The notes under the pieces: model-generated | Seen by the model: the letters and a program-made list of their open reading frames with translations, nothing else | Databases searched by the model: none | What the model was told of the DNA's origin: nothing | In this document: positions 8,119 to 58,178 of the stretch, one piece after another | Position numbering within the stretch: the first letter of the stretch is position 1 | How the letters are laid out: each line of letters begins with the position of its first letter | Translations under genes and position numbers: made by a program | Origin: Marivita hallyeonensis | GTDB lineage: Bacteria > Pseudomonadota > Alphaproteobacteria > Rhodobacterales > Rhodobacteraceae | Assembly (NCBI RefSeq): GCF_900129875.1 | Contig: NZ_FQXC01000005.1 | Coordinates: forward strand, 248,001-312,000 | DNA: 64,000 bases | Direction: 5' to 3'

Positions 8119-8119
8119 A

Positions 8120-8515: not shown

Positions 8516-8574
8516 TCCAAGCGGGAACCGGCAGGTGTCCGACGCGTTATCGCCGCAAAAGGAGATACGCTTAA

Positions 8575-9249: not shown

Positions 9250-9264
9250 TCAGCCAGCGGATCT

Positions 9265-10422: not shown

Positions 10423-10426
10423 ATGG

Positions 10427-42107: not shown

Positions 42108-43405
42108 CTAATCCACCGGCAATCCGCTTGGCACCGTCTCCGGTCGTCCCAACGGCCGCTGCAACGCGGTTTTGCCCGTGAGGGCCTCCAGAAACGCGAC
42201 GATATCGTCCACGTCCCCCTCGCTCAGTGTCACCGGACGCAAGTCCAGAAACGCCGCCTGCCGTGCCATCTCAAGCGTGTCCGTCTGGATGACAAAGTCG
42301 ATCTCCTGCAACCACGGCACGTCCGGCAGCCGGGCCTTCTCCGGCGTCCACTCCGCCCGCGCCGCCAGCGGATCGGCCATGTGCCGCACCATGTCGCGCA
42401 GGTCCGCGTAGACCCCGTTATGCCCATAAGGCGCGGTGAGCGTCACGTTGCGCAGGGATGGGGTGCGGAACCGGTAGGCATCCTCCAGATCGTCCGTCGC
42501 GCCCATCCGCCCCACATCGCGCGGGATCGGGTCCCACTGCCGGGTCCGCCCCGGGCCAAAGGCGGGCAGGCCCACTGCGTGAAACGCCTGATCTGTGAAG
42601 AGCGGCCCGTTATGGCATTGCGCGCACCCCGCCGTGCCAAAGAACAACTGCCGCCCGCGCTCCGCCGCCGCGGGCAAGGGCGTGCCGTCCCGCACAAAAT
42701 CATCATAGGGGCTGTCGTAATTCGCCCATTCCGTCCCGATAAACGCGGCCAGAGCATTGCCAATCTCGACAATCGTCACCTGCCCGGGCGTCTCGATATG
42801 GTCGAACGCGGCGACGAACATCTCGCCATATTCCGGGATCGTCCGCACCCGCTTGGCAAGGATCGGCCAGCCCAGATCGATCCGGTCATGCACCGCCCCG
42901 ATCACTTCGTTCTCGCCCGTGTTCCCCGCCATCTCGAACTGCGCCGTCATCGGGAACAGGGCCTGCGCCGCCAGAAGCGATCCCAAGCCCTGCGGCAACC
43001 ACTCCTCTGCGGGGCTGTCGAACCCGTTGCCATAGAGATCCGACGGCTCCAGCCGCCCGTCATGGAACATCACCCGCACGTCCTTGTGCCCCAGGTTCCA
43101 CAGCGCGGGCGCGTTGCGCGGGATGCGCTTGCGGATCGCGTCTGCCCCGTCACCGGGCACACGATCCGGCCCCAGACCGACACCGCCCTCGCCAATCCCC
43201 AGCGACAGACCATCCGTCCCGCCCATGTCATGGTGATGGCACGTCCCGCACGAGATATTGCGGTTCCCGCTCAGGATCTTGTCGTAAAAAAGCAGTTGAC
43301 CAATCCGCGCCTGATCCGCATCGAAGGCGATGAAATCCTCCGCCGTGATCGGCTGCGCCAGCGCAGCGGGCGCGGCCAAAGTCAGACCGCAGAGCAGACC
43401 GACAT
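42108..43405 (-). CDS. Di-heme cytochrome c peroxidase (MauG/CcpA family), start unclear
   Basis: About 430 residues. A signal-like stretch (GLLCGLTLAAPAALAQ) is followed by two heme motifs, SCGTCHHHDMGG and GCAQCHNGPLF, and family blocks APALWNLG and TPSLRNVTLTAPYGHNG. The protein is probably periplasmic and reduces peroxide or oxidises a partner. No ATG, GTG or TTG lies in frame close upstream of the signal peptide; an ATG at 43405 is in a different frame and meets TGA after seven codons. A one-base frameshift near 43384 or an unusual start is possible. The 5' end given is therefore approximate. Confidence 0.75.
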
Positions 43406-43880
43406 GACGTTTCTTCGCCCCCTTGCCGCCGCGCTTGTGCTCGCCACGCCCGCGCTGGCCGATCTGGAAGAGGCGCGCGACCTGATGGAGGAGGGCCGCT
43501 TTGAAGAGGCCCGCACCGCCCTCTGGCCCGCCGCCCGCTCGGGCAATGCCGAGGCCGAGGAACTGATCGGCGTCATGTACGCGCTGGGGCTTGGTGTCGA
43601 ACAGGACCACGTCCGCGCCTTCGACTGGTACCTCCGCGCGTCGATGAAGGGCCACCCCGGCGCGCAATCGGGCATCGGCTGGTACTATGAAACGGGCCTC
43701 GGCCTGCCCGCTCCCGACCTCGTCCGCGCGTTCCTCTGGTACCAACTCAGCACCATCGGAGGCGACCCCGACGCCGCGATCTCGGTCGAGGAAGTGGTCA
43801 AGAAAATGACGCCGGAACAAATAGACCATGCGCAACAGCTCGTGGATGACTACCGGGTCTGGCTCTACCCGTTCCGGTGA
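43404..43880 (+). CDS. Secreted Sel1-repeat protein
   Basis: The 158-residue product has a signal peptide (MTFLRPLAAALVLATPALA) and two to three Sel1 repeats (ARSGNAEAEELIGVMYALGL, MKGHPGAQSGIGWYYETGLG), which usually mediate protein contacts. It diverges from the peroxidase gene with the two coding regions meeting at the CATG of its own start, leaving no space for separate promoters. Confidence 0.85.
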   Translation: MTFLRPLAAALVLATPALADLEEARDLMEEGRFEEARTALWPAARSGNAEAEELIGVMYALGLGVEQDHVRAFDWYLRASMKGHPGAQSGIGWYYETGLGLPAPDLVRAFLWYQLSTIGGDPDAAISVEEVVKKMTPEQIDHAQQLVDDYRVWLYPFR

Positions 43881-43957: not shown

Positions 43958-44662
43958 TCATTTCGCATCACTGGATTTCGCTTTTCGAGCACGTAAGCGA
44001 TCTACTAAACCTTTCAGTTGATAACGTGCCTTTAGAATTTCTTTGGCAAGTTCAATGGAGTCCTCCGATTCATCTTTTCCAATCTGAATATAATTCTTAG
44101 CTGTGATGTGCGCCGCATCGTTTCCTAAGGCTTTCAACTCAGTCATTGCATCGAACAATTCATCTGGCAGTGTGACCTTCGAGCGAAGTGAAACAAGCCT
44201 GGTATGAAGGTCTTTTCCTTCTGCGCCGCTTTCATCGCAAATTTCCTCCAAGAGGCGGCGAACCATCATTGCAGAAGCGCGATAAGCTTTTGCCGCATGA
44301 CAGGATATTGCCTCCTCAAGCGTGCTCAGTAATTTTTTGGGAAGGTTTTTTGCGTCGAAGTCGATCAATTCGGGTGGCGATACATTCACGTAATCTGTGC
44401 CAGACGATACCGTGAATACAATGCCATTGCATTCTGTGTTGGGACACACGCGGATAAAACCGTACATACTTCGGCCTTTGGTCCGCGAATGATCAATTTG
44501 ATACTTTGTCCACCCAAGACCTTCACGAATTGCTCCAAATGTTCCGACATGCAGGCAGTGCGGGCATCGCAATGAAAGTGGTTGTTGATTATGTGAATCA
44601 ACTAGCCTCACTCGGTCATCTGCTTGAAAAATGTTAGGGTTCTCGAATAGTAGCTCTTTCAT
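43958..44662 (-). CDS. DUF4145-domain protein, AT-richer than its surroundings
   Basis: The 234-residue product has an N-terminal zinc-ribbon-like part (CPHCLHVGTFG, then CPNTECNG) and a C-terminal helical DUF4145 region (AAKAYRASAMMVRRLLEEIC, NDAAHI). DUF4145 proteins are often found with defence or restriction genes, but none are adjacent here. The DNA is visibly AT-richer than both sides, with different codon preference (many A/T third positions), suggesting acquisition by transfer. Start chosen at ATG 44662. Confidence 0.8.
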   Translation of the reverse strand: MKELLFENPNIFQADDRVRLVDSHNQQPLSLRCPHCLHVGTFGAIREGLGWTKYQIDHSRTKGRSMYGFIRVCPNTECNGIVFTVSSGTDYVNVSPPELIDFDAKNLPKKLLSTLEEAISCHAAKAYRASAMMVRRLLEEICDESGAEGKDLHTRLVSLRSKVTLPDELFDAMTELKALGNDAAHITAKNYIQIGKDESEDSIELAKEILKARYQLKGLVDRLRARKAKSSDAK

Positions 44663-45350
44663 AGTTCTCTCACACATCCATCCTGCCAATTACCCGACAA
44701 TCGATGTACCAAGACTCCGTGTCAATTGCGCTGTACGCACCGAGTATCTCGCGCGAAACAGCGGGCGTAGCCCGCCGCGCATCGCCGACGCGCCCCAACG
44801 CGGCGGCGATTTGGGTGGGGCAGGGCGCAGCACAACCATTCTTCGGATTTGGCAGAGATAAACCACGCCGCTCGACCGTCGGATCGCCCCCGCGCGCGTC
44901 GGCGATGCGCGGCTCCTCCCGGGGGAGCGTCCGAGCCTACGAAGGCTCGGGGGACGTCTTTTCGAAAAGACGTGCCACCGCGCGGTGCATATCGAAGGCG
45001 TTAACCCTCCATCCCCTAGACCTCCCGCCACAAAGCGCTTTGAGCGGGAAGGGTCACTCCCATGCCGCGACCACGACCATGACACCCTCTCACATGCCGG
45101 AAGGCTGACCATGAGAGACCGGTTTCCGAACAGGCCCTGAGACCCAGGGTACAGGTCGCCCGTTGACTCGGGGACGTTGAGAGAACTGTCAGACCCATAA
45201 GGGCGGCGCCGCTTCTTCTCGAACACCACTGCTTAAATGATACCCGATGGGGCCTTCCCCAGCGGCCAATCCCCCGTGTCGTGCCCTGTCGAAATTGACA
45301 GGCCGCGCGTGCGGGGCAACGCTGCCTCCATTGCACATGGAGACATTGAT
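44663..45350. repeat. Gene-free, palindrome-rich region
   Basis: No convincing gene lies in these 688 bases. GCCGCGCATCGCCGACGCGC (44774-44793) recurs as its exact reverse complement at 44894-44913. Other hairpins: GCGGGC-GTA-GCCCGC (44761-44775), GCTCC/GGAGC (44912-44928), CCGAGCCT-ACGA-AGGCTCGG (44931-44950), the 20-base palindrome at 44954-44973 (ACGTCTTTTC and its complement), CACCGCGCGGTG (44976-44987) and TCCCGC/GCGGGA (45023-45049) around CAAAGCGCTTTG. Open frames here on both strands look non-coding. Confidence 0.75.
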
Positions 45351-45722
45351 ATGCTGACCCCTTTCGACATCTGGGCCCCGATGTTCCGCGCGCCGTTTTC
45401 CGGGGACGTGACGCAGGAGATCACCCCGCGGTTCTTCTCGCCCGACATTCAGGGCATCCCCGAGATCGAACACAAGGTCCAGACCGAAGTGGCGAGCTAT
45501 GGCAAACAGCTTGGCAAGATACTCGAAGCGCTGCAGACCCTGTCCAAGGCCACCGACACGCCGCTGCCCGAGATCGACACGCTGGTCACAGAGATCGAAG
45601 CGATCAAAGACGAGAGCAAAGCGTCGTTCAAAGACGATGCCGTCGCCGCGCTCGACCGGTTGCGCAAGGCCGACAAGGACGCGTGGCAGGACGTCGTCGC
45701 CACCGCCCGGACGGCCGAATAG
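45351..45722 (+). CDS. Small helical protein of unknown function
   Basis: The 123-residue product has a hydrophobic-aromatic start (MLTPFDIWAPMFRAPF) and a long charged helix (VASYGKQLGKILEALQTL, then EIDTLVTEIEAIKDESKASF), probably coiled-coil. It has no signal peptide or recognised family. GGAG lies eight bases before ATG 45351. It converges with the TRAP transporter operon. Confidence 0.65.
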   Translation: MLTPFDIWAPMFRAPFSGDVTQEITPRFFSPDIQGIPEIEHKVQTEVASYGKQLGKILEALQTLSKATDTPLPEIDTLVTEIEAIKDESKASFKDDAVAALDRLRKADKDAWQDVVATARTAE

Positions 45723-45753
45723 AAAACGCCCCCGCCGGTGAGGGCAGGGGCGT
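45722..45753 (-). terminator. Terminator of the TRAP/monooxygenase operon
   Basis: On the minus strand ACGCCCC (45753-45747) pairs with GGGGCGT (45732-45726), with further pairing inside, and is followed by TTTT. It lies 21 bases past the dctP stop and probably ends the whole operon. The stem could also serve the convergent small gene, but no T-run follows on that side. Confidence 0.75.
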
Positions 45754-45774
45754 CGTCATGGCACAGGTTCGTGC

Positions 45775-46833
45775 TTAGTTCAGGTCGGCCTCGTAGGCCG
45801 CGTTCAACTCGGCCTCGGCTTCGGCAACCGCTTCGGTCAGCGCCTGGTAGATTTCCGGACCGCCATCGACGTTCTCCTGGAACCAGTCAAACACCGGCGC
45901 CGCCGCGTCGCGGAAGGCTGCTTTCTCTTCCGGTGTCGGCACATAGAGGTCACCGCCGCCTGCGACGAAGTCCTGATACGCCTGGATCGACTTGCGCTTC
46001 GGCGAGGCGAAGGTCGCCTGCTGGAGCGCGGCAAAGCCATCGACGACAACGCGGCGCAGGTCCTCGGGCATCTCCATGAACTTCGCGTTGTTCATCACCC
46101 AGATCGCGCCCATATAGGCGTGGCCGTCCAGCGTCACGTATTGCAGGCCCGCATCCGGGAACTTCATGCCCATGATGTCGGTGATGCCGTTCTTCGATCC
46201 GTCAACCACACCCGTCTGGAAGGATGTAAATAGCTCCGGCCAGGAGATCGGCGTCGGTGCTGCGCCCAGCGCTTTCACCACTTCCTGCGGCAGATCGGCG
46301 ACCACGGTGCGGATTTTCAAACCCTCAAGGTCGGACGGCATCTGCACCCGGCGCTGCGTGTTGGCAAAGTTGCGCCAGCCGCCGGTGTTGCCGATGGTCA
46401 TGATGCGGATCGTGTCGCCGGAGTCCTCAAGCGCCATCTCGCGCATCGTGCGGGTGAAGTCGCCCGACAGCACATGCTCCGCCACGCGGTCATCCGACAT
46501 GAGGTACGGCAGGTCGAGCACCTGAACGTACGGGAAGATGCCCGCAGCACCACCCGAGGTGGTCACGAACACGTCGATGGACCCGTCCGAGACGCCCTGA
46601 AGGCATTCCGCGCCACCGGAACACAGCTGCGTGCCGATAAACAGCTCAACCGCGATGCGCCCGTTCGAGGCGTTCTCGACATGGTTTTTGAAGACGATCA
46701 GACCGTCATAGTCCTCGTCATTCTCGTTGGAGTTCGCGGTCGCGCGGATCGTGAAATCCTGCGCCGCCGCGGTGATGGCGGACCCCGCCAGAAGGGCGGC
46801 CGTCAGTGCCGCTGTTGTCAGACCTTTGAGCAT
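45775..46833 (-). CDS. TRAP transporter substrate-binding protein (DctP type)
   Basis: The 352-residue periplasmic binding protein has a signal peptide (LTTAALTAALLAGSAITAAAQ) and TRAP DctP features: FKNHVENASNGRIAVELFIG, the conserved Arg in GLKIRTV and TSFQTGVVDGSKNGITDI (in part). DctP proteins usually bind carboxylates or other acids through that Arg; a sulfonated sugar acid group could be bound likewise. Last gene of the operon. Confidence 0.9.
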   Translation of the reverse strand: MLKGLTTAALTAALLAGSAITAAAQDFTIRATANSNENDEDYDGLIVFKNHVENASNGRIAVELFIGTQLCSGGAECLQGVSDGSIDVFVTTSGGAAGIFPYVQVLDLPYLMSDDRVAEHVLSGDFTRTMREMALEDSGDTIRIMTIGNTGGWRNFANTQRRVQMPSDLEGLKIRTVVADLPQEVVKALGAAPTPISWPELFTSFQTGVVDGSKNGITDIMGMKFPDAGLQYVTLDGHAYMGAIWVMNNAKFMEMPEDLRRVVVDGFAALQQATFASPKRKSIQAYQDFVAGGGDLYVPTPEEKAAFRDAAAPVFDWFQENVDGGPEIYQALTEAVAEAEAELNAAYEADLN

Positions 46834-46892
46834 TTGGTTCTCCCTGTCGCTTCTATTTTGGTCGGTTACACGGGGTGGGTCCCCGCAGGTTA

Positions 46893-48182
46893 TCAGTCCG
46901 CAAACCCGGTCAGGCGCGGAATGGTCATGGAAATCTCCGGAATGAAGGTGATGAGGAAGATCACGACGATCTCGATGAAGAGAAAGGGCAGGATCGCCTT
47001 GGAAATGGTCTCGACCCGCTCGCCCGAAACGCTGGACGCAACGAAAAGCACCAAGCCCATCGGCGGAGTGGCAAGGCCGACGGTCAGGTTCACCGACATG
47101 ATGATGGCAAAGTGAATGGGATCGACGCCGAGGTCCACGAAGATTGGCCCAAGGATCGGCCCGAGGATGATGATCGCGGGACCAGCATCGAGGAACATGC
47201 CGACAACAAACAAGAGCAGGTTGATCAGGAACAAGAGAACCAGCGGGTTCTGGCTGAGCCCCAGTACGAATTCGGCGAGGATCTCGGGCGTGTGCGACAA
47301 AGACACCACCGTCTTGAACGCCATCGCGGCACCGACGAGCAACAGAACGACAGCCGAGGTCATCGCCGCGCGCATCAGCACGTCGGGCAGGTCCGACAGC
47401 TTCAGCGTGTTGAGGACGAACATCCCGATGATCACCGCATAGGCCACAGCCACGGCGGCGGCCTCGGTCGGTGTGAAGACGCCAGCTAGGATACCGCCCA
47501 GGATGATGACAGGCGTCATCAGCGGGAAGAACGCCTTGAGCGACGCCTGTCCACGTTCACCCCAGGTTGCTTTCTGTCGGGAGGCGGGGAAGTCGTAGCG
47601 GTCCGCCTGGAACTTGATCATCAGCATGAGCCCAACGCCCACGAGGATGCCCGGCACGATGCCAGCGAGAAACAGGGCTGCGACGGACTCGCCCATGACA
47701 TAAGCGTAGATGATCATGATGCCCGAGGGTGGGATGATCGGGCCGATCACCGACGAAGCCGCGGTGATGGCAGCGGCGAATTTGCGGGTGTAGCCCTCTT
47801 TCTCCATCGCCGGGATCAGCATGGATCCAAGCGCAGAGGTGTCCGCGACAGCCGAGCCGGAGAGACCCGCAAAGAGCATCGACGACAGCACGTTCACATG
47901 CGCCAGCCCGCCCCGGAAATGGCCCATCATGGCCTGAGAGAACTCCACCAGCCGCATCGTGATGCCGCCCCGGTTCATCAGCTCTCCCGCCAGCATGAAG
48001 AACGGGATCGCCATCAGAGGGAAAGACGCCATGCCGTTGTAGACATTGCGGTAAAGCAGGATCAGGTCGCGTTCCTGACCGTTGAGCCAGAGCATAATGC
48101 CGGGGGCTGCGAGCATGCCGAAGAAGACTGGCAGGCCGATCATCAGGAAGAGCAGGAAAAGCGGAAGGAACCAAACCAGCAT
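46893..48182 (-). CDS. TRAP transporter large permease (DctM type)
   Basis: The 429-residue protein has about twelve membrane segments and DctM motifs: MAIPFFMLAGELMNRGGI, LFAGLSGSAVADTSALGSML, IIPPSGIMIIYA and LTVGLATPPMGLVLFVA. It carries substrate inward with sodium. It begins four bases after the DctQ stop. Confidence 0.95.
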   Translation of the reverse strand: MLVWFLPLFLLFLMIGLPVFFGMLAAPGIMLWLNGQERDLILLYRNVYNGMASFPLMAIPFFMLAGELMNRGGITMRLVEFSQAMMGHFRGGLAHVNVLSSMLFAGLSGSAVADTSALGSMLIPAMEKEGYTRKFAAAITAASSVIGPIIPPSGIMIIYAYVMGESVAALFLAGIVPGILVGVGLMLMIKFQADRYDFPASRQKATWGERGQASLKAFFPLMTPVIILGGILAGVFTPTEAAAVAVAYAVIIGMFVLNTLKLSDLPDVLMRAAMTSAVVLLLVGAAMAFKTVVSLSHTPEILAEFVLGLSQNPLVLLFLINLLLFVVGMFLDAGPAIIILGPILGPIFVDLGVDPIHFAIIMSVNLTVGLATPPMGLVLFVASSVSGERVETISKAILPFLFIEIVVIFLITFIPEISMTIPRLTGFAD

Positions 48183-48186
48183 CGCG

Positions 48187-48765
48187 CTACTCCGCCGTCA
48201 TTTCCGCGTCGAGCGCGGACCGGAGCTGATTTTCACCGCCAAACAGCGTGACGAGCGCGCGCAGGATCAGCTCGATGTTCACGACAAAGAGCAGGACCAG
48301 ACCGGTCACGAATGACGCGATCTGCCAGCTGTTCGGCATCTTTTCCCAGCCGTCGCTCGTGGGGTAGTAAAGCGAGGCGCTCTTGAATTTGCCGGCAAGG
48401 CTGGTGATCTCGCCCCACCCCATCTCGACGCCAAAAGCCAGCACAACGCCGGAGATCAGGAGCAGGACAAGGCTCAGGACGGTTGCGGCCATCTTCGGCA
48501 AAGCGGCGGAGACGATCTCAAGCGCGACGAAACCACCCCGTCTGTAAGCCGAAGGGGCGATGGCGGCGGTCATCCACAGCATCAGGAAAATCGCCAGTTC
48601 TTCTGGCCAGGGGAGGGCGTTGCCCAGAACGTAGCGGAAGAACACCTGCAACAGGATTGCCAGCACCATCACGGTAATCGCGACAATCGCAACTCCGCGA
48701 CCAATGCGCAGGACGACGTCGAGCACGATTTCCAAAGGCTTCAACAGCCAAAGCAATATGGCCAT
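48187..48765 (-). CDS. TRAP transporter small permease (DctQ type)
   Basis: The 192-residue membrane protein has four hydrophobic segments and the DctQ block VFFRYVLGNALPWPEELAIFL. It is longer than many DctQ proteins because of a loop (about 125-150) before the last segment. It lies 78 bases after the flavin reductase gene on the same strand, which links transport and enzymes. Confidence 0.92.
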   Translation of the reverse strand: MAILLWLLKPLEIVLDVVLRIGRGVAIVAITVMVLAILLQVFFRYVLGNALPWPEELAIFLMLWMTAAIAPSAYRRGGFVALEIVSAALPKMAATVLSLVLLLISGVVLAFGVEMGWGEITSLAGKFKSASLYYPTSDGWEKMPNSWQIASFVTGLVLLFVVNIELILRALVTLFGGENQLRSALDAEMTAE

Positions 48766-48843
48766 GACTGGCCTCCTCCCTGTCCCTCACCGCTCTCCTC
48801 AGGGCGGTGGGCCCCGTCGTGTTGTTCCGTTTATTGGGGCCGA

Positions 48844-49350
48844 TTATGACGTCTGAGTAAACCCTCCGTAGCGTCCGGCGTGGAATAAAAGCGGTTCGCC
48901 CGGGTGCGTGCTGACACGCGTCACGCGGGCGATGATGATGGAATGGTCGCCGCCATCGTGTTCGGCGGTCTTGGTGCATTCGAAGCGACTTGGGCAGCCG
49001 TTGATGAGCGGCACGTTGTGCAGGCCCGGTTCCCAGTCGATCGCGTCAAATGCATCGCCGCTGCGCGCGAACCCGCTGCAAAGGGTCTCCTGCTCGGCTC
49101 CGATGACGTGGACCGCAAAGTGATCGGCAGCCATGAAGAACGGGTAACGACTTGATGATTTGGCCGGTGACCACAGCACCAGAGGCGGATCGAGCGACAC
49201 GCTGGCAAAGCTGTTCGCCGTAATCCCCAAAGGCCCCGACGACGTATTGCAGGTGATGACCGTCACACCCGTCGCGTATTGACCCAGCGCGTCACGGAAG
49301 GCGCGGCTGTTCTCTACCGAAGGGTCGAAGCTATGGGTCATATCGCTCAT
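48844..49350 (-). CDS. Flavin reductase (HpaC/SmoA-like)
   Basis: The 168-residue protein is a flavin reductase-like split barrel: FRDALGQYATGVTVITCN, GITANSFASVSLDPPLVLWSP and HFAVHVIGAEQE. It would supply reduced FMN to the two-component monooxygenase encoded at 50353-51507. ATG 49350 is seven bases after the aldo/keto reductase stop. Matching genes are called smoA in the described sulfoquinovose monooxygenase cluster; I infer that role from context. Confidence 0.85.
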   Translation of the reverse strand: MSDMTHSFDPSVENSRAFRDALGQYATGVTVITCNTSSGPLGITANSFASVSLDPPLVLWSPAKSSSRYPFFMAADHFAVHVIGAEQETLCSGFARSGDAFDAIDWEPGLHNVPLINGCPSRFECTKTAEHDGGDHSIIIARVTRVSTHPGEPLLFHAGRYGGFTQTS

Positions 49351-49357
49351 CGGATCG

Positions 49358-50248
49358 TCAGGCGACTTCGCGGCCAAGCGCGTGGGTGTAGAGGTCAAAC
49401 CATGTCTCCCGGTCGATCTGGACCTGTGCAGCATCGCCGATGCGTTTGATGCGGTCCAGATTATTGGTGCCGAGCACAGGTAGAATGCGCGCCGGGTGTG
49501 CCAAGAGCCACGCAACCGCCACGGCGCCCATATCGACATCCTGTTCTTGCGCGATCGCTGTCAAAGCGGTCCGCAGCGACGCGAGGCTCTCATCCTGAAA
49601 CAGCGCACCGCCCCCCAGAGGCGACCACGCCATCGGCGGTTGGCCGTGCATCTGGTGGAAGGCGATGTCTCCATTGGTGAAGGGCGCGTGATGCAGCAGG
49701 CTGATCTCGATCTGGTTGGTGACCAGTTTGGTGGTCATCGCCGATTGCAGCAGGTCCCAGTCCCACGGACGGAAATTCGACACGCCGACCGCGCGCACCT
49801 TGCCGCTGGCGACCACTTCGTCCAGCGCGCTGCCCGTCTCAAAATGGTCCATGAACGGGTCGGGACGGTGGATCAGCAACAGGTCGATATGGTCGATCTT
49901 CATCAGCCGCAGCGAGTGCTCGACCGACGCCAGGATATGCGCGCGCGAGGTATCGTAATGCTTGACCTTCGCGTCCGCATAGCGGCCCACCGGAGCGACG
50001 ATGTCACATTTGGTGACGATCTCGATCCGGTTGCGCAATTCGGGCGTGAGCGCGTTGCCGAGGATCTCTTCGGCCTCATACCCGCCATAGATGTCGGCCT
50101 GATCCATCGTCGTGATGCCCTGGTCGAGGCAGGCGCCAATTTTGTTCTGGATATGCCCGGCAGAGGTGTCGGCATCATCCCCCAAGCGCCACATGCCGTA
50201 GACAAGGCGGCTGAGTTCCAGAGTGTCGTTCAGTTTTACGCGATCCAT
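49358..50248 (-). CDS. YdhF-like aldo/keto reductase (SmoB-like candidate)
   Basis: The 296-residue TIM-barrel reductase resembles E. coli YdhF. Tetrad residues: Asp and Tyr in MDQADIYGGYEAEEI, Lys in IVTKCDIV and His in LLLIHRPDPFMDHF; WSPLGGGALF and VLGTNNLDRIK bind NADPH. In the SMO pathway an aldo/keto reductase (SmoB) reduces 6-oxo-glucose to glucose after desulfonation, a fitting role here but inferred. AAGG lies seven bases before ATG 50248; an ATG six bases earlier is too close. Confidence 0.85.
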   Translation of the reverse strand: MDRVKLNDTLELSRLVYGMWRLGDDADTSAGHIQNKIGACLDQGITTMDQADIYGGYEAEEILGNALTPELRNRIEIVTKCDIVAPVGRYADAKVKHYDTSRAHILASVEHSLRLMKIDHIDLLLIHRPDPFMDHFETGSALDEVVASGKVRAVGVSNFRPWDWDLLQSAMTTKLVTNQIEISLLHHAPFTNGDIAFHQMHGQPPMAWSPLGGGALFQDESLASLRTALTAIAQEQDVDMGAVAVAWLLAHPARILPVLGTNNLDRIKRIGDAAQVQIDRETWFDLYTHALGREVA

Positions 50249-50352
50249 GCTCATACCTTCGGCAGCAATTTTTTTTTCTGCAGAGCCAAACAGATTCTTC
50301 GGAGAAGAATCTGGGCGCTCAAAATTAAATTCTGGTGTATGATGGAGGGGCA

Positions 50353-51507
50353 TCAGCGGCGCTCTCCCACACCGAGTGGTGTCATCGGAGCGCTGGCCGG
50401 AACGCGGCCATACGCCTCTGGCAGCGAACAGGTTTTCAGCTGCGGCAACACCCGGCTGCCGAAATGCCGACACTCGTCCAGATGCGGATAGCCTGACAGG
50501 ATGAAAGCCCGGATGCCCATCTTCTGGTACTCTTCCAATTCGCTCAGCACCTGATCGGTAGACCCGACCAGCGCCGCGCCGCAGCCTGACCGCGCACGTC
50601 CCACGCCGGTCCACAGATGCGGTTCGACAAACCCCTCCATATCCGCCAATTCGCGGTTCTTCGCCTGATGCGATACCCCGAGCGAGGTCGCGTCCAACGC
50701 GCGTTCGCGGATCGTCTGGCCCTGTGCGTCGTCGAGCTTGGACACGATATATTGCGCATATTCCCGCGCCTCGGCCTCGGTATCGCGAACGATGACATGC
50801 ACGCGCAGGCCGTAGTCCAACGTCCGGTCATACCGTTCCGCCACGGCATGCACATCCTTCATGCGCTGCGTCAACGCGTCTTTCGGCTCGGGCCACATCA
50901 GGTAGACGTCGCAATGCTGACCGCAGAGTTCGAGCGCCGCCGGGGAGTAGCCGCCGAAATAGAGGAGTGGCCCGCCGGTCTGGTACGGTTTCGCCGGATC
51001 GGTGGTCAGGCCCTCGAACTGGTAGACCTGACCCTGATAGTTGATTTCGTCCTGTGTCCAGGCCTGTTTCAGGATCTCCACCACCTCGCGCGAGCGTTGA
51101 TAGCGGTAAGCGCTGTCCGCCTTTTCGCCCGGGAAATCCGACGAGATGATGTTCACCGTCAGACGACCTTCGAGCATGTGGTCGAGGGTGGCGATGGTGC
51201 GGGCGAGCATGATCGGCTGCATCTCACCACAGCGCACGGCGGCCAGCATGTTGATCTTGTCCGTGATCGGCGCGCATCCCGCGACGAAGGACAGCGTGTC
51301 CTGACCGACCTGATAGGAGGACGGGCAGAGGATGTTGCGGAAGCCTTGAGCCTCCGCCTCTTTCACGATGCCCGAACAATGCGCCCAGCTGGATCGCAGG
51401 GTGCCGTCCGGTACGCCAAGGAACTGGTAGTCGTCGGAACAGAGCGCGGCGAACCATGACACCTCGGCCGCGTCGAGGTCCGGCGAGGTGATGGGGACGA
51501 TGGTCAT
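50353..51507 (-). CDS. SsuD-like FMNH2-dependent monooxygenase (sulfonate type; SmoC-like candidate)
   Basis: The 384-residue bacterial luciferase-like (LLM) protein has SsuD-family blocks: VSWFAALCSDDYQFLG at the N-terminus, ARTIATLDHMLEGRLTVNII, LLYFGGYSPAALEL, LRVHVIVRDTEAEA, LWTGVGRARSGCGAALVG and FILSGYPHLDEC. This family cleaves C-S bonds of alkanesulfonates with O2 and FMNH2, giving an aldehyde and sulfite. Its neighbours point to a sugar sulfonate such as sulfoquinovose. First gene of the minus-strand operon; diverges from gntR. Confidence 0.88.
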   Translation of the reverse strand: MTIVPITSPDLDAAEVSWFAALCSDDYQFLGVPDGTLRSSWAHCSGIVKEAEAQGFRNILCPSSYQVGQDTLSFVAGCAPITDKINMLAAVRCGEMQPIMLARTIATLDHMLEGRLTVNIISSDFPGEKADSAYRYQRSREVVEILKQAWTQDEINYQGQVYQFEGLTTDPAKPYQTGGPLLYFGGYSPAALELCGQHCDVYLMWPEPKDALTQRMKDVHAVAERYDRTLDYGLRVHVIVRDTEAEAREYAQYIVSKLDDAQGQTIRERALDATSLGVSHQAKNRELADMEGFVEPHLWTGVGRARSGCGAALVGSTDQVLSELEEYQKMGIRAFILSGYPHLDECRHFGSRVLPQLKTCSLPEAYGRVPASAPMTPLGVGERR

Positions 51508-51550
51508 AAGGTGTCTCCGACGCGCATCATTTTGTCTTGCGTAGCACCGT

Positions 51551-51583
51551 CAAAAATGTAGATCAATAGTGTATCAATTTTTG
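51551..51583. promoter_or_regulatory. AT-rich inverted repeat between LLM and GntR genes
   Basis: In the 84-base divergent gap, CAAAAAT (51551-51557) and ATTTTTG (51577-51583) enclose TAGATCAATAGTGTATCA. The symmetric AT-rich site ends nine bases before the gntR start and is the best candidate operator for GntR, controlling both directions. Sequence alone cannot prove binding. Confidence 0.45.
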
Positions 51584-51591
51584 GTCCCGAA

Positions 51592-52293
51592 ATGCCCGAC
51601 ACCCACGCCCTGCCGAAATATGTCCAGATCAGCGAATTGCTGATCCGCGATATTCAGGCGGGTCGATTGGTCGATGGGGAACGCCTTCCGCCCGAGCGGG
51701 ACATGGCGGCGCGGCTTGGAATCTCTGTTGGCACTTTGCGCAAATCGCTGGATGAACTGACGGGCCTCGGCTTGTTGGAGCGGGTGCAGGGCTCCGGGAA
51801 TTATGTGTGTGCGCAAGAGGATACGCAATCGGTCTACGCCTTCTTCCGGGTCGAACTGCTGGACGGCGGCGGCTTGCCGACAGCGGATCTGCTCTCGGTG
51901 GACCGCTTGCCGAAACCTGACGATTTGCCGTCTTTCGGACAGAGCAACGAAGGTCACCGCATCCGGCGTTTGCGGCGGCTGAACGATGTGCCGGCGGTGC
52001 TTGAGGAGATCTGGCTCGACGGCAGCTACGCCGAAACAATCGACGCCGATGCTCTGCGCGAGTCGCTGTATCTCTACTACCGCGAGTCGCTGGGGCTCTG
52101 GATCACCAAGGCGGAAGACCGGCTGGGCCTGTCGACCGTGCCGGACTGGGCGCCGGATGCTTTCGGGCAGGCGCCGGGACAGCCCTGCATGCGCGCCACG
52201 CGTCTGAGCTACGGCCCGGACGGTCTGGCTGCCGAGGCCTCGTGGAACTGGATCAACACTGACGTCGCCACCTACGTGGCGCGCATCACCTGA
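51592..52293 (+). CDS. GntR-family regulator with UTRA domain
   Basis: The 233-residue regulator has an N-terminal winged helix (LPKYVQISELLIRDIQAG, RLPPERDMAARLGISVGTLR) and a UTRA ligand domain (about 80-230), HutC subfamily. It probably senses the sugar or a pathway intermediate and represses both divergent transcripts. It is followed nine bases later by the Gfo/Idh/MocA gene. Confidence 0.9.
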   Translation: MPDTHALPKYVQISELLIRDIQAGRLVDGERLPPERDMAARLGISVGTLRKSLDELTGLGLLERVQGSGNYVCAQEDTQSVYAFFRVELLDGGGLPTADLLSVDRLPKPDDLPSFGQSNEGHRIRRLRRLNDVPAVLEEIWLDGSYAETIDADALRESLYLYYRESLGLWITKAEDRLGLSTVPDWAPDAFGQAPGQPCMRATRLSYGPDGLAAEASWNWINTDVATYVARIT

Positions 52294-52302
52294 AGGACCA
52301 TC

Positions 52303-53394
52303 ATGGACATCATCAATTACGGCATCATCGGATGCGGCATGATGGGGCAGGAGCACCTGCGCAATATCGCGTTGCTGGACGGAGCGCGCGTGGCAGCGAT
52401 CTTTGAACCGGACGAGATCATGTCCAACGCCGCCAAGGCAATAGCCCCAAATGCGCGGCTGTGTGCGTCGATCGACGAGTTGCTGGCCTTTGCGGATCTC
52501 GATTGCCTGCTGGTCGCCAGTCCGAACCACTGCCATGTCGATGCGCTCGAACAGATTGCCGAGACAAACCCGCTGCCGCTTCTGATGGAGAAACCGCTCT
52601 ACACGGACCCTGTCGATATCGCGCGGGTGGAGGCGATTGCGGCAAGCTACCCCTCACCGATCTGGGTGGCGATGGAGTATCGCTACATGCCGCCTATCCA
52701 CGTGCTGATCGAACAGGTGCAGCGCGCCACAGGTGGGGTTAAGATGCTCACCATCCGCGAACATCGCTTTCCCTTCCTGCCCAAGGTCGGCGACTGGAAC
52801 CGGTTCAACCGAAATACAGGTGGCACGCTGGTTGAGAAGTGCTGCCACTTCTTCGACCTGATGCGCCTGATCCTTGGCTCTGACCCGATCCGCATCAGTG
52901 CGAGCGCGGGGCAGGAGGTCAATCACCTTGACGAAACCTACGACGGACAGACGCCGGATATCTGGGACACGGGCTATGTCATGGCCGATTTCGCCAACGG
53001 CGCGCGGGCCATGCTGGAGCTGTGCATGTATGCCGAGGGGTCGAAGTACCAGGAAGAGATCAGCGCCGTCGGCCCTGCGGGCAAGATCGAAGCCTTTGTT
53101 CCGGGGCCGGGTCGGTTCTGGCCCACGCATCTGGGCGCGCCGCCTGTGGCGCAGGTCATCGTGAGCCCGCGCAGCCCGAAAGGCCCGCAGGCGGTCGATA
53201 TCCCGGTGGACCCCACAATCCTCGATGCGGGCGATCACAACGGGTCGACCTTTTACCAGCATGTGCGCTTCCTTGATCTGGTGCGGACCGGCGGTACGCC
53301 AGAGGTCACACTTGCCGACGGAGCATGGGCGGTGCGCATGGGATTGGCGGCGCAGGAGGCGGCGAAATCCCACGCGGTGGTTGCCCAGATTTGA
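52303..53394 (+). CDS. Gfo/Idh/MocA oxidoreductase (candidate oxidoreductive glycosidase)
   Basis: The 363-residue NAD(P)-dependent protein has a Rossmann domain (GIIGCGMMGQEHL), the family EKP motif in LLMEKPLYTDP, and the C-terminal domain with GGTLVEKCCHFFDLMRL. Some Gfo/Idh/MocA enzymes cleave glycosides by transient oxidation, and such sulfoquinovosidases have been described. No hydrolytic sulfoquinovosidase (GH31) is seen in this window, so this gene could take that role; alternatively it is a plain sugar dehydrogenase. Confidence 0.85.
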   Translation: MDIINYGIIGCGMMGQEHLRNIALLDGARVAAIFEPDEIMSNAAKAIAPNARLCASIDELLAFADLDCLLVASPNHCHVDALEQIAETNPLPLLMEKPLYTDPVDIARVEAIAASYPSPIWVAMEYRYMPPIHVLIEQVQRATGGVKMLTIREHRFPFLPKVGDWNRFNRNTGGTLVEKCCHFFDLMRLILGSDPIRISASAGQEVNHLDETYDGQTPDIWDTGYVMADFANGARAMLELCMYAEGSKYQEEISAVGPAGKIEAFVPGPGRFWPTHLGAPPVAQVIVSPRSPKGPQAVDIPVDPTILDAGDHNGSTFYQHVRFLDLVRTGGTPEVTLADGAWAVRMGLAAQEAAKSHAVVAQI

Positions 53395-53562: not shown

Positions 53563-56500
53563 ATGAATGCGATTAATTTCGTCATCCGTACCCGTGCGGG
53601 TGCGATCGAACGTGGAGTGATTGGTGAAAGTGATCAGGGGTATCTGATCGAAGCTGGCAACGGCCGCGAAATCTCTCTCAATCTTCATCGATCCGATATG
53701 CGCGGATACGACCGCGCCGGGAATGATCTGCAGATCACGTTGGCCGATGGCCGGGTGATCGTGCTTGAAAACTACTTTGACGCAAGCGGCGGAGGCCGGT
53801 TGTTCCTCAGCACCGACGGGGTGCTGAGCGAGGTCGCGTTTGCCGAAGGCGATGGCGGCGTTTTGTTCGCGCAATACGGAGACGTGGCGGCCTGGGGCAA
53901 GTGGTCCCCCGATGACGCGCTGATCTTTTACGACCGCGCCGAGGTGATCGCCTCAGATGTTGTGGCTGGCGATGACGACGGCGGTGTCTCCATGCTGGCC
54001 GCCGGTCTTCTGGCCGGTGGTGGCATGTTGCCCTGGCTTGGTGCCGGAGCAGCGGCGGCCGGGGCTGCGGCGATCATCAGTGGCGACGGAGACGGTGACG
54101 GTGATGGCGGCGGAGGGCTGGTTGGCTCTGGCGGCGACAGCGGCGGGCCGAAATCCCCGACGGTTGATGACGGCGAATACAAGATCGGCGGCGATGACCT
54201 CACCGACGAAGATCGCACGGTCCTGGTGAGCGGCACGGCCAACGACGGCGATACGGTTGTCGTGACCATCGGCGACAAGACGCAGACAACCACCACCGGG
54301 TCGGACGGCACATGGGAGGTGATCTTCTCGGGCCCCAACTTCCCGGCGGACGGCACCTACACGGCGATTGTCATCGTCACGGGCAGTGAAGGCACCGAGA
54401 CACCGCTGACGGGTCCGACGGTGATCATCGACACGACGCCACCGGTGGTGAACGTGACAGGCGGCACGACCTCCATGGGCGATATCGTCACCGAGGTGGA
54501 ATTCGACGGCGGTGTGACCGTCACCGGCACGACCGAAATCGGCGCATCCGTGGTTCTGATCGTGGGCGGCGTAAGCCATGTGGCGGACGTCGATGCCCAG
54601 GGTGGCTGGTCGGTGTTCCTTGAAAGCTCTGTCTTCCAGCGTGGCGAGTATGTCAGCGACATCTCGATCGTCGCGACGGACAGCTTCGGCAACTCCACGA
54701 CGATCACTGACGGGATCGAGATCGACACCGTGTCGGGGGTGACGATCAACACCACAACGATTGAAACCGACGGTATCATCAACGCCGATGAACGCACGGA
54801 CGGGGTTGAGATTACCGGGACGACAGATCCGGGATCGACCGTCGTGGTCGAGATGAACGGTTATTCGCGCACCGCGCTGGTGGATGCGCAGGGCAACTGG
54901 ACAGTGACCTTCATCGCCACCGAGCTCCCGGTGGGCGAACAGATGCTGACCATCAGCGCCACGGCGACGGATGGCGTGGGCAATGTCAGCAGCACGTCCG
55001 GGCAAGTCGAATTGGACACCTGGGTGCGCAACTTCGACATCACGTCGCAGGCGGGCGGCGCCGACGGCGTTGTGAACGCGGCCGAGGCGCAGCAGGGTCT
55101 CACCGTAACCGGCACGACGGAACCGGGCGCGTCCGTGACGATCACGCTGGACGGTGTATCGCGCGAAGGCTCGGTGGATGCGGCGGGCAACTGGACCGTG
55201 ACATTCCTGCCGGGCGAATTGCCGGGCGGCGAGCAGACGGTAACGCTAACGGCAAGCTCCACCGACCTTGCGGGCAACACGGCGGTCGAAACACGGTCGG
55301 TCGTCTTCGACACCGACGCGGGCCTTCTGACCATCAGCCCGGCGCCCATCGAAGGCGATGACGTGGTGAATGAGGCCGAGGCGTCCGATGGCGTGACGAT
55401 CACCGGCACCTCTACGCCGAACGCGATTGTGGATGTGACGCTCGATGGGGTGAGCAAGACGGTCCAGACCGACGCGGCCGGCATCTGGCGCGCCAACTAC
55501 CTCGCGGGCGAAATCCGCCCGGGCGAGTACGAAGCGCAGATCACCGCCTATACCGTGGATGCGGCGGGCAATGAATTGACTCGCAGCGATACTGTGATGG
55601 TCGACACTTTCGTGCGCAATTTTCAGGTCAGCGCGAACCCGGTCACGGCGGACAACATCGTCAACAACAGCGAACAGTTCAACGGCGTGACGCTTAGCGG
55701 CACGACCGAGCCGGGCGCATCGCTTTCGGTGACGGTCGAGGGGATCACCCGTGTTGCCAATGTGGACGCGATGGGCAACTGGACGGTCAGCTTTTCGGCT
55801 ATGGATTTGCCGGACGGCACCTACACCACAACCGCGCAGATCAGCACACAGGACGCGGCGGGCAACACCGCAACGACATCCAAGACCTTCCAAGTCGACA
55901 CCGAAGTCGTGCCGCTCACCAGCACGTCGCAGCCGGGTGGCCCGGACGGCGTGGTCAACGCGGCCGAAGCGGCGCAGGGCTTTGTCCTGACCGGCCAAGT
56001 CGAGCAAGGGTCAAGCGTCACGGTCACCATCGGCGGCATGGCGATGGTCGCGCAGGTAACGGCGGGCGGCGTCTGGTCGGTCAACGTGCCGGAAAGCGCG
56101 ATCCCAAGCGTGAACGGCCAGAGCGTCGCCATCAACATCTCGGCCACTGACGCGGCGGGCAACACGGCGACGATCACCGAGACCATGGTGGTCGACACGG
56201 TCACGCCCAACGAGCCCGACATGACGGCGATCACCCGCGACCAAAGCCAGGCGGTACGCGGAATCGTTCTTGAGACGACCGACGACACCGTCGCCATCGA
56301 CAAGGTCAGCTCCACGGGCGGCAATTCCGGCGCACAGGGTGTGGCGTTCAACGCGCAGGACAACAGCTTCACTGGGGAAACCACGTATAGCTTCAATCAG
56401 GTTGTGCCCGACGGCTCGCATCTGGTGGTGACGGCGACCGACAGCGCGGGCAATAGCTCGGGCACCTACGTCGTCGTCGATGATCCGAACACCAGTCAGA

Positions 56501-56784
56501 GCAATGTCACACTGGCGGCCAATATCGGCGGCAAGAAGATCGACGCGATTGATCTGGAGTTCACCGAGGAAGCCTCTCTGTCCATCACCGAAGCGCAGAT
56601 TGTCGCGCTCACCGGTCAGGACAACACCGTAAAGGTCCTGGGCAACAGCGATGACAGCGTCCGCATCACGGGTGCAACCCGCACCGGTACGGTGGTCGAG
56701 GATGGCGAAGGCTACGCGTCCTACCAGCTTGGCGATGCGACGGTGTTGATCGACGACGAAATCACCAATGTAAGCACGATTTAA
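53563..56784 (+). CDS. Large Ig-repeat adhesin, type I secretion substrate
   Basis: The 1073-residue protein begins with a BapA-prefix-like domain (about 1-130; LITFADGRVIVLENYF-type strand seen as DGRVIVLENYFD), a hydrophobic Ala/Gly stretch and a GDGDGDGDGGGG linker. Seven Ig-like repeats of about 97-99 residues follow, each with GVTVTGTTEPGASVTV-like and DAAGNWTVTF-like strands and a terminal DT. A short different C-terminal domain (about 900-1073) ends TNVSTI. No RTX nonapeptides are seen. It is probably displayed or released by the secretion genes downstream. Confidence 0.88.
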   Translation: MNAINFVIRTRAGAIERGVIGESDQGYLIEAGNGREISLNLHRSDMRGYDRAGNDLQITLADGRVIVLENYFDASGGGRLFLSTDGVLSEVAFAEGDGGVLFAQYGDVAAWGKWSPDDALIFYDRAEVIASDVVAGDDDGGVSMLAAGLLAGGGMLPWLGAGAAAAGAAAIISGDGDGDGDGGGGLVGSGGDSGGPKSPTVDDGEYKIGGDDLTDEDRTVLVSGTANDGDTVVVTIGDKTQTTTTGSDGTWEVIFSGPNFPADGTYTAIVIVTGSEGTETPLTGPTVIIDTTPPVVNVTGGTTSMGDIVTEVEFDGGVTVTGTTEIGASVVLIVGGVSHVADVDAQGGWSVFLESSVFQRGEYVSDISIVATDSFGNSTTITDGIEIDTVSGVTINTTTIETDGIINADERTDGVEITGTTDPGSTVVVEMNGYSRTALVDAQGNWTVTFIATELPVGEQMLTISATATDGVGNVSSTSGQVELDTWVRNFDITSQAGGADGVVNAAEAQQGLTVTGTTEPGASVTITLDGVSREGSVDAAGNWTVTFLPGELPGGEQTVTLTASSTDLAGNTAVETRSVVFDTDAGLLTISPAPIEGDDVVNEAEASDGVTITGTSTPNAIVDVTLDGVSKTVQTDAAGIWRANYLAGEIRPGEYEAQITAYTVDAAGNELTRSDTVMVDTFVRNFQVSANPVTADNIVNNSEQFNGVTLSGTTEPGASLSVTVEGITRVANVDAMGNWTVSFSAMDLPDGTYTTTAQISTQDAAGNTATTSKTFQVDTEVVPLTSTSQPGGPDGVVNAAEAAQGFVLTGQVEQGSSVTVTIGGMAMVAQVTAGGVWSVNVPESAIPSVNGQSVAINISATDAAGNTATITETMVVDTVTPNEPDMTAITRDQSQAVRGIVLETTDDTVAIDKVSSTGGNSGAQGVAFNAQDNSFTGETTYSFNQVVPDGSHLVVTATDSAGNSSGTYVVVDDPNTSQSNVTLAANIGGKKIDAIDLEFTEEASLSITEAQIVALTGQDNTVKVLGNSDDSVRITGATRTGTVVEDGEGYASYQLGDATVLIDDEITNVSTI

Positions 56785-56867
56785 GAGGGTAACGCAGTTC
56801 GGGCCGCGCGTAATTGCGGCCCGGGCCCCGACATAAAAAGAAAGCCACAGGCGGGGGCTCAGGACGG

Positions 56868-58178
56868 ATGAGGCAGAGAACAAGAGCCACGGCGGGTGCG
56901 GTGCTTGTCACAACGGCTCTTACGGGATGTATGCAGGATTTGGGGGATGGGGCCGTGTCGCGGTTCCTGACGACCGAACCTGCGGCGACGTCTGAAACGC
57001 GTGTCGCCGCCCCGGTGCCGTCTGACGCGTCGCCGGTTATCAGCGCCTTGTCGTCCCGATCCTCCGTCCTCACCGCCGGATCGCCTTACGATCAGGTCGC
57101 AGCGGGCGTACTGGCCGCCGATGCGCGCGTTGCCGAGGCAGAGTTGCACGTGGCAAAACTGCGCGCCGAGGCGGCATCGAAGAACTGGCTGCCGACACTC
57201 TCACCACGTATCTCGCTGACGTCGCTCGGGGATTTCGTGGCCGATCTGGTGGTCAATCAGGTGCTCTTCGACAATGGCCGCAAGAAAGCCGAGCGTGATC
57301 TGGCGAAGGCGGATGTCGAACTGGCCGCGGTGGCGCTATCGGAAAGCAGCAATGACCGGGTCTACGACGGGCTGGTGCTTTATTTGCAGGCCGAGGAAGG
57401 CCGTGCGGCAGCCGATCTTTACGCTCAGGCACTCAAGGACATGGGTCATTTCGAATGGGTCATGGACGAGCGTGTCAAAGGCGGCGTCTCGGATTTCTCT
57501 GACCTCAATGTGATCCGGCAGAAGATTGCCGACCTGCGGTCGCGCGACAGCGCGGCGCGGGAAAAGACCACCCGCGCCCTGGGTGAGCTGAACGCGATGT
57601 CGGCGACCAGCCTGTCAGACCTGCGCGGGCTAAGGTCAATGGGCACGACGCCCGAAACCATGTCCCTAAGTGTCTTGCGCGCCATGGTCGAACGTGACCA
57701 GCAACTGGCGCAGGCGCGGATTGCGCGGGCACAGCATCTGCCCGGCTTGTCGGTGGGCGGCAGCATCCGGAACGACGGAGAAAACATCGCGGTGACGGGC
57801 GGGTCGGACGTGGGACTTGGTCTTGGAACGATGGCGTCGCTTGACGCGATCGAGGCCACCAAGGTCACCGCCGACCGCAAAGTCACCGAAGCCCGCGACA
57901 TCGCACAGCGTGCAATCGAAGCCGACCAGCGCGAGATTGCCGCGCTGAATCGGCAGGCGGAGGAGGCGGCGGCGCTGACGCGGCAAGCGAAACAGAACCT
58001 CGACCTGTTCCAGCGCCAATACGAAGGTGGCGCGCGGCAGGTGATGGATGTGGTCGGCGTCTACGAGACCTTCCTGCGCGCTCTGGAAAAGGAGCTGGAC
58101 CTCAAATTCCGCGCCGCGCGCGCCGAGCTTGATGCGGCCAAGCGGTTGGGCATTCTGGCAGATGGGGCGCGCATATGA
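56868..58178 (+). CDS. TolC-like outer membrane lipoprotein of type I secretion
   Basis: The 436-residue product has a lipobox (VLVTTALTGC) and long helices of an outer-membrane efflux duct (AAGVLAADARVAEAELHVAK, RQYEGGARQVMDVVGVYETF-type segment seen as GGARQVMDVVGVYE). It would form the outer channel with the HlyD and ABC proteins encoded next. ATG 56868 has AGGA upstream. Overlaps the ABC gene by ATGA. Confidence 0.85.
   Translation: MRQRTRATAGAVLVTTALTGCMQDLGDGAVSRFLTTEPAATSETRVAAPVPSDASPVISALSSRSSVLTAGSPYDQVAAGVLAADARVAEAELHVAKLRAEAASKNWLPTLSPRISLTSLGDFVADLVVNQVLFDNGRKKAERDLAKADVELAAVALSESSNDRVYDGLVLYLQAEEGRAAADLYAQALKDMGHFEWVMDERVKGGVSDFSDLNVIRQKIADLRSRDSAAREKTTRALGELNAMSATSLSDLRGLRSMGTTPETMSLSVLRAMVERDQQLAQARIARAQHLPGLSVGGSIRNDGENIAVTGGSDVGLGLGTMASLDAIEATKVTADRKVTEARDIAQRAIEADQREIAALNRQAEEAAALTRQAKQNLDLFQRQYEGGARQVMDVVGVYETFLRALEKELDLKFRAARAELDAAKRLGILADGARI

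Follow-up and report, generated by a model that had tools for sequence, protein, structure and literature searches.

A sulfoquinovose monooxygenase gene cluster of Marivita hallyeonensis with a TRAP transporter as probable importer of the sulfosugar

The 64,000-nucleotide stretch of Marivita hallyeonensis DNA analysed here (the window; contig NZ_FQXC01000005.1, positions 248,001 to 312,000) carries at 45722-53394 eight genes that, judged by sequence, are a sulfo-SMO cluster, a gene set for the breakdown of the sulfosugar sulfoquinovose (SQ) by an SQ monooxygenase (SMO). The assignment follows from the identities of the monooxygenase SmoC and of an aldo/keto reductase to solved enzymes, and from the grouping of a Gfo/Idh/MocA protein with the GH188 sulfoquinovosidases with all eight substrate contact residues. 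An ATP-binding cassette (ABC) for sugars of the SmoFGH type was not found in the cluster by Pfam searches; genes of a tripartite ATP-independent periplasmic (TRAP) transporter stand in its place. The operon very probably serves the catabolism of SQ and SQ glycosides by the sulfo-SMO route, with the TRAP transporter importing SQ or its glycoside.

SmoC is ~77% identical to PDB entry 7olf and ~76% to 7oh2 (E 1e-207), and ~32% to the alkanesulfonate monooxygenase SsuD (1nqk); we take 7olf and 7oh2 to be SmoC structures and 7bbz to be the SmoB structure, having found no paper that names these codes. Residues R235, H237, R306, Y340 and H342, which by their roles in SsuD presumably act in the active site, are invariant in 110/110 loci (duplicate genomes among them). 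The reductase is ~66% identical to 7bbz, and its D51, Y56, K82 and H129, presumably the tetrad motif of aldo/keto reductases, are equally invariant in 110/110 loci. The flavin reductase is the least conserved enzyme: identities range from 45 to 83% in relatives, and in some it was not found. At family level, all three enzymes that mark a sulfo-SMO cluster are present: a SmoC-type monooxygenase, a SmoB-type reductase and a flavin reductase. The genes for SmoB and SmoC are adjacent and fall within the published definition of a sulfo-SMO cluster, both genes within 10 open reading frames (ORFs) (PMC13372026).

The product of the divergently transcribed Gfo/Idh/MocA gene, sqgA, is ~67% identical to 8zn9 and ~49% to ArSqgA, the SqgA of Arthrobacter (8qc3); it scores 559 bits with 8zn9 and 363 bits each with 8qc2 and 8qc3, and the next Gfo/Idh/MocA structure reaches 64 bits. 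The SQ-contacting residues of ArSqgA, K107, Y136, R166, L170, K172, E189, H193 and H321 (PMC10755693), all have identical counterparts in the window (8/8; K97, Y126, R155, L159, K161, E178, H182 and H312), and these are unchanged in 78/78 SqgA proteins of SMO-type loci and in 8/8 of loci resembling the sulfoglycolytic Embden-Meyerhof-Parnas (sulfo-EMP) pathway, in a set that contains duplicate genomes and from which SMO-type hits with less than 95% coverage were dropped. Glu163 of ArSqgA aligns beside E153, one position off in the numbering used. The window protein thus shares family and contact residues with the GH188 SqgA enzymes of Arthrobacter and Flavobacterium (8qc2, 8qc3) and with 8zn9, although Arthrobacter SqgA comes from a sulfo-EMP cluster and the window SqgA from a sulfo-SMO cluster. 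GH188 enzymes cleave both alpha and beta SQ glycosides, and they are near-universal in Roseobacter sulfo-SMO clusters (Kaur et al. 2023, PMC10755693). A GH31 protein (PF01055) was not matched in the M. hallyeonensis genome at E 0.001 (controls match in 6/14), which leaves SqgA as its sole sulfoquinovosidase candidate of a known type. The original prediction, made from the letters of the window, had read the cluster as oxidation of a sulfosugar by an SMO-type pathway with an NAD-dependent glycosidase candidate; both are borne out by these comparisons, and a lack of residues for a sugar sulfonate, which it had named as an argument against itself, was not seen at the level of sequence.

In the pathway that we propose, DctP would capture SQ or sulfoquinovosyl glycerol and DctQM would carry it inward. 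SqgA is predicted to use its bound NAD+ to oxidise C3 transiently and so open the glycoside, a mechanism shown for homologues and with the residues conserved here. The flavin reductase would provide reduced flavin mononucleotide (FMNH2) to SmoC, which by homology would use O2 to cleave the C-S bond, giving sulfite and 6-dehydroglucose; the SmoB-like reductase, again by homology, would turn 6-dehydroglucose into glucose, to be phosphorylated by a glucokinase that is encoded elsewhere in the genome. GntR would regulate the divergent promoter via an ATTGAT-N5-ATTGAT operator.

All eight genes of the original prediction were recovered with their families and positions in Pfam and NCBIfam profile searches. 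The minus-strand operon runs smoC, smoB-like reductase gene, flavin reductase gene, dctQ, dctM, dctP and hairpin, with gntR and the Gfo/Idh/MocA gene divergent on the plus strand (Table 1). To see how common this layout is, we scanned genome_contigs for SmoC relatives and kept the best 80 of at least 557. The gene dctP is present in 57 of these 80 closest SmoC loci, and the full set of eight, with gene order and strands as in the window, recurs in 56 of the 80; the 57th dctP locus (L015) ends at the contig edge. Since 56/57 dctP loci keep the eight genes in order, a chance arrangement is excluded. Among the 23 loci without dctP, six (L005, L009, L014, L063, L068, L079) hold less than 3 kb after smoC. 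In a family sample of 120 genomes, one per genus, SmoC was found in 47, SqgA in 57 and a DctP orthologue in 42 (E limits 1e-120, 1e-60 and 1e-100, respectively). From both counts, the layout is ordinary in the family. The original prediction had presented the cluster as a variant with TRAP and glycosidase parts in place of known ones: the parts are there, but the novelty was overstated, as GH188 in Roseobacter SMO clusters is published and the layout is common. Loci L082-L110 and L126-L141 partly duplicate genomes of L001-L080, and the counts over 109, 110, 78, 63 and 29 loci are not independent.

Genome context links the TRAP transporter to SQ. With DctP orthologues defined by E up to 1e-100 and identity of at least 68%, 41 of the 42 family-sample genomes with DctP fall among the 58 that have SqgA or SmoC (n=120; Fisher 3e-17, genomes not independent). 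SmoC is present in 31 of the 42 and absent from 11. DctP is encoded within 3.3-4.9 kb of smoC in 30/31; the remaining genome, G102, has the two on separate contigs. All 11 DctP loci without SmoC were examined: eight (L111, L112, L114, L117-L121) have dctQMP beside genes for a PfkB kinase, a fucose-isomerase-C protein and SqgA, and seven of these eight additionally have a DeoC/LacD aldolase and a DeoR regulator, a set resembling the sulfo-EMP pathway (Pfam families were read for L111 and the other loci identified by tblastn to L111). The SQ isomerase SqvD belongs to the fucose isomerase family (PMC9594981), and hybrid sulfo-EMP clusters have been described (PMC12890257). In a second sample of 385 genomes of the class, which shares at least G000, G055 and G075 with the first, DctP is present in 12 genomes, four of them without SmoC; three of these four (two from one genus) have the full EMP-like set. 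The fourth, G452, with a DctP of ~50% identity, has the isomerase and aldolase only. Over both samples, the TRAP genes stand beside an EMP-like set in 12/15 DctP genomes without SmoC, 11 of the 12 with GH188. Of the eight class genomes with both DctP and SmoC, G311 and G428 have them on different contigs.

The TRAP importer is therefore not tied to SMO chemistry: in relatives, orthologous TRAP genes are found next to those of a sulfo-EMP-like pathway. A DctP tree of 68 rows has the eight EMP-linked rows scattered, and its starred branches force at least three changes, which indicates that the TRAP swapped its partner pathway more than once. As two routes with GH188 as their only shared enzyme share the transporter, it most simply carries their common substrate, and we infer from this context that the TRAP substrate is SQ or its glycoside. 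The EMP-like sets of relatives resemble the hybrid sulfo-EMP or EMP2 pathways in their SQ isomerase of the fucose isomerase family (SqvD, PF02952); they differ from the cluster studied here in lying outside the window and, as assigned at family level, in having a PfkB-type kinase, a DeoC/LacD-type aldolase and a DeoR regulator.

Several observations weigh against a TRAP dedicated to SQ. The TRAP is not obligatory for the SMO route, with 16 of the 47 SmoC genomes lacking the orthologue, and in 3/15 DctP genomes without SmoC (L113, L115, L116) it is not beside an EMP set. L113 combines the TRAP genes with genes for a Sel1-repeat protein and a MauG-type protein, with SqgA on another contig of the same genome; L116 (genome G048) consists of flavin reductase and TRAP only, in a genome without SqgA or SmoC matches, and is possibly a remnant. 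The assignment of the EMP enzymes goes no further than family: the L111 aldolase is closer to tagatose-bisphosphate aldolases plus a DUF2090 protein than to YihT, and the L111 isomerase had no PDB match. Furthermore, an arginine equivalent to R147 is found in 96.8% of the TRAP substrate-binding protein family (PMC4646407); such arginines being general, the arginine clamp of DctP is not selective for SQ or sulfonates.

All 16 family-sample genomes with SMO loci that lack the TRAP were examined. L128, L131 and L139 have sugar ABC genes beside the SMO genes, with Pfam-checked parts being the binding protein, permease and ATPase of L139, the binding protein of L131 and the ATPase of L128; a single L129 ORF shares 50-60% identity with permease-like ORFs of this trio. 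L130 and L138 have a different set of sugar ABC genes together with a protein that, from the appearance of its sequence, is GH13-like. The remaining loci had no clear transporter in a mechanical ORF listing. L008/L138, an SMO locus that has no TRAP, carries what looks like a peptide-type ABC transporter next to sqgA, and the sugar ABC genes and GH13-like gene follow the flavin reductase gene.

The window transporter itself is a TRAP system, with Pfam scores over cut-off for DctP, DctQ and DctM and a DctP fold that agrees. DctP (95% identical to DctP of Marivita sp. S6314; the source genome measures 4.19 Mb) has S93, R154, R175, W198 and N215 invariant in 34/34 orthologues from SMO and EMP contexts. 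By a constant offset of 2, these would be the counterparts of IseP Ser95, Arg156, Arg177, Trp200 and Asn217, which hold or line the isethionate site of the TRAP system IsePQM (PMC11668362); the Arg-Arg-Asn that holds the sulfonate (R156/R177/N217) would thus be alike in both. IsePQM differs in its C2 sulfonate and in having no sugar pocket, and IseP Asn98 and Tyr153 would be A96 and G151 here, by the same unverified offset. The model of DctP has a mean pLDDT of 78, with values below 50 at residues 202-218, adjoining the pocket. It matches TRAP binding proteins of many ligands, IseP being one of many with tied Z, so that the fold cannot pick the ligand.

Could the enzymes degrade SQ while the TRAP imports something else, for example dihydroxypropanesulfonate, sulfolactate, isethionate or a sugar acid, with SQ entering by another transporter? 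Among the solved TRAP binding proteins nearest in sequence and fold are some that bind isethionate or sugar acids, and the SMO loci with a sugar ABC cassette (or, in L129, one related ORF) or with no clear transporter nearby point the same way. However, smoC and the TRAP genes run in one direction behind a shared divergent promoter, the TRAP genes accompany two non-homologous SQ routes, and just 1/42 DctP genomes lacks both SqgA and SmoC; we consider another TRAP ligand unlikely. Still less probable is a true substrate other than SQ-glycerol, be it another 6-sulfosugar such as sulfofucose or a beta-linked glycan of SQ: the activity of GH188 on both anomers would allow it, and sulfofucose catabolism exists in Paracoccus (PMC12421959), but the sulfofucose cluster has an ABC cassette and other enzymes (same source), and SmoC, the SmoB-like reductase and SqgA of the window match SQ enzymes. 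An operon for alkanesulfonate or methanesulfonate (SsuD/MsuD-like) with sugar-type side genes is hardly credible. The best NCBIfam hits of SmoC are SsuD models and 7olf was deposited as 'Methanesulfonate sulfonatase', but the SsuD model score is 242 against a cut-off of 518 bits, SmoC is far closer to 7olf than to SsuD, and the SmoB-like reductase and GH188 fit only a sulfosugar. Uptake and breakdown of SQ or its glycoside accounts best for the cluster as a whole.

The sulfo-SMO (sulfo-ASMO) systems of Agrobacterium and Novosphingobium have a SmoC, SmoB-like enzymes, a flavin reductase and a sulfoquinovosidase adjoining an importer, as found here; they differ from the window in that the window has a TRAP instead of an ABC importer, GH188 instead of GH31, and a GntR-UTRA regulator with its own conserved operator (PMC9594981 for part of the Agrobacterium system). 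The window looks like one of the Roseobacter sulfo-SMO clusters with SqgA of Kaur et al. 2023 (PMC10755693); the main text of that paper, which is the part considered here, contains neither 'TRAP' nor transporter, permease, tripartite or DctP. Among the matches listed from the SQ-uptake literature, none describes SQ import by a TRAP system; two of them concern taurine-degrading gut bacteria, judged by abstract. In the main texts of two recent SQ papers no word starts with 'trap', and in three others the word refers to trap columns or ion traps used in mass spectrometry. Of the proposed variant, the glycosidase half is already published, and the importer half, not found in the texts considered, gains strong context support from our data; the link between TRAP and SQ may already be in print, for example in papers on Roseobacter growth on SQ or on SMO, or in the supplement of Kaur et al.

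Algae and plants produce SQ in very large amounts, and in the sea Roseobacters count among the organisms that consume it. TRAP systems are driven by ion gradients, not ATP, and TRAP uptake would suit low substrate levels in seawater. DctP is a named candidate protein and a genomic marker that spans two breakdown routes, and could sharpen surveys that rely solely on counts of pathway enzymes. If the assignment is true, DctP would have no precedent as a sulfosugar-binding protein of a TRAP system among the literature matches listed.

The pattern ATTGAT-N5-ATTGAT is present within 140 nt upstream of smoC in 105/109 loci (81 distinct sequences). Its core is 100% conserved partly because the pattern chose the sites; fair measures are the 105/109 and the flanking columns, which are A-rich before the repeat and conserved as CTACATCAA after it, with a TGCTACGCA box ~17 bp further. 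In L072, L080, L106 and L108, the four loci where the pattern is missing, a site lies further upstream or has altered halves; L037, L055, L070, L079 and L094 carry the pattern but score under a threshold taken from the sites' own 5th percentile. The M. hallyeonensis genome has the operator once only at up to 2 mismatches, with 2 hits for the reversed control pattern. We propose that GntR acts at this site, where it would probably be a repressor. The conserved TGCTACGCAAG box is possibly the extended -10 of the smoC promoter; it was not picked up by a sigma-70 scan. A sigma-70 hit, TTGACG-AATGAT, was dropped, as such hits are at chance level (2 found, 2.4 expected).

Table 1. Features of the cluster and its neighbourhood (window positions)
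Feature	Position	Strand	Basis
di-haem MauG / cytochrome c peroxidase-type protein, start not fixed	42108..43409	-	PF03150
Sel1-repeat protein, divergent from MauG-type gene	43404..43880	+	PF08238
terminator-like hairpin, operon end	45725..45754	-	12 pairs, 9 GC, T tail, 3' of dctP
dctP, TRAP substrate-binding protein, proposed ligand SQ or SQ glycoside	45775..46833	-	genome context
dctM, TRAP large permease subunit	46893..48182	-	PF06808; TIGR00786 over cut-off
dctQ, TRAP small permease subunit	48187..48765	-	PF04290
flavin reductase, predicted FMNH2 supply (SmoA role)	48844..49350	-	PF01613, over cut-off
smoB-like aldo/keto reductase, 298 aa, predicted 6-dehydroglucose to glucose	49358..50254	-	PF00248
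smoC, FMNH2-dependent sulfoquinovose monooxygenase, 384 aa	50353..51507	-	PF00296 luciferase-like monooxygenase
conserved TGCTACGCAAG box, possible extended -10 of smoC promoter	51536..51546	-	TGCTACG in 65/109 upstream regions
proposed GntR operator ATTGATACACTATTGATCTAC..., two ATTGAT as direct repeat 11 bp apart	51551..51578	-	conserved pattern
GntR/UTRA-family regulator	51592..52293	+	PF00392 + PF07702
sqgA, predicted GH188 NAD-dependent sulfoquinovosidase	52303..53394	+	GFO_IDH_MocA; similarity to 8zn9, 8qc3

The terminator that the original prediction had placed at the end of the operon was located after dctP; the region has 14 terminator-like hairpins (6.8 expected), and this one has the longest stem. 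A 418-aa ORF for the aldo/keto reductase is overlong and was rejected in favour of a gene start at ~50254. The gap between smoC and the reductase gene is ~98 bp here; most of the 80 relatives have no such gap, the reductase gene starting at the smoC stop codon. At L115 (genome G040, 7374-10809), the genes for reductase, flavin reductase, TRAP, gntR and sqgA are kept, with no smoC and a gap of ~290 bp between gntR and the reductase gene; SmoC was not found elsewhere in G040 at E 1e-120. At L108 (genome G094), SmoC and DctP are encoded at a distance of only 3.3 kb; a SmoB-like reductase was not found within 1.5-kb flanks, nor was SqgA matched anywhere in G094.

About 1.9 kb from dctP lie the divergent genes for the Sel1-repeat protein and the di-haem MauG-type protein (42108-43880). 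Of the 63 loci that extend 4 kb or more beyond dctP, 49 have the pair in the dctP locus (SMO 38/48, EMP 9/11, other 2/4), the set omitting 13 shorter loci (seven with the pair) and L147 (DctP below 60%). The pair is found in 0/29 SMO loci of at least 17 kb without DctP, with MauG alone in two (duplicate genomes in both sets). Conversely, 27 of the 29 genomes with the closest MauG orthologues have DctP, 22 of them within 12 kb. It is conceivable, if rather doubtful, that dctQMP, Sel1 and MauG form a transferable module for uptake of SQ glycosides that serves either the SMO or the sulfo-EMP-like route, with the di-haem enzyme helping to handle the sulfosugar or its carrier ahead of uptake. A literature search on SQ and cytochrome c peroxidase returned no paper on the subject, as judged by abstracts. 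L113 and L145 have the Sel1-MauG pair with the TRAP and no SQ enzymes at the locus; in G428, TRAP-Sel1-MauG (L145) and SmoC-GntR (L146) are on different contigs. In L017 and L141, SMO clusters without TRAP and Sel1, a MauG-type gene directly follows the SMO genes.

Between Sel1 and dctP (43958-45722), the window has a DUF4145 ORF (43958-44689, minus strand) and a small ORF (45237-45722, plus strand) with no Pfam match; neither was found in any of 122 loci, suggesting a possible local insertion. Downstream of sqgA (53563-58178) are a repetitive adhesin-like ORF of 1073 aa and an outer-membrane efflux-like ORF, both named by sequence appearance, with relatives in 10/122 and 8/122 loci, respectively, many of these loci being short.

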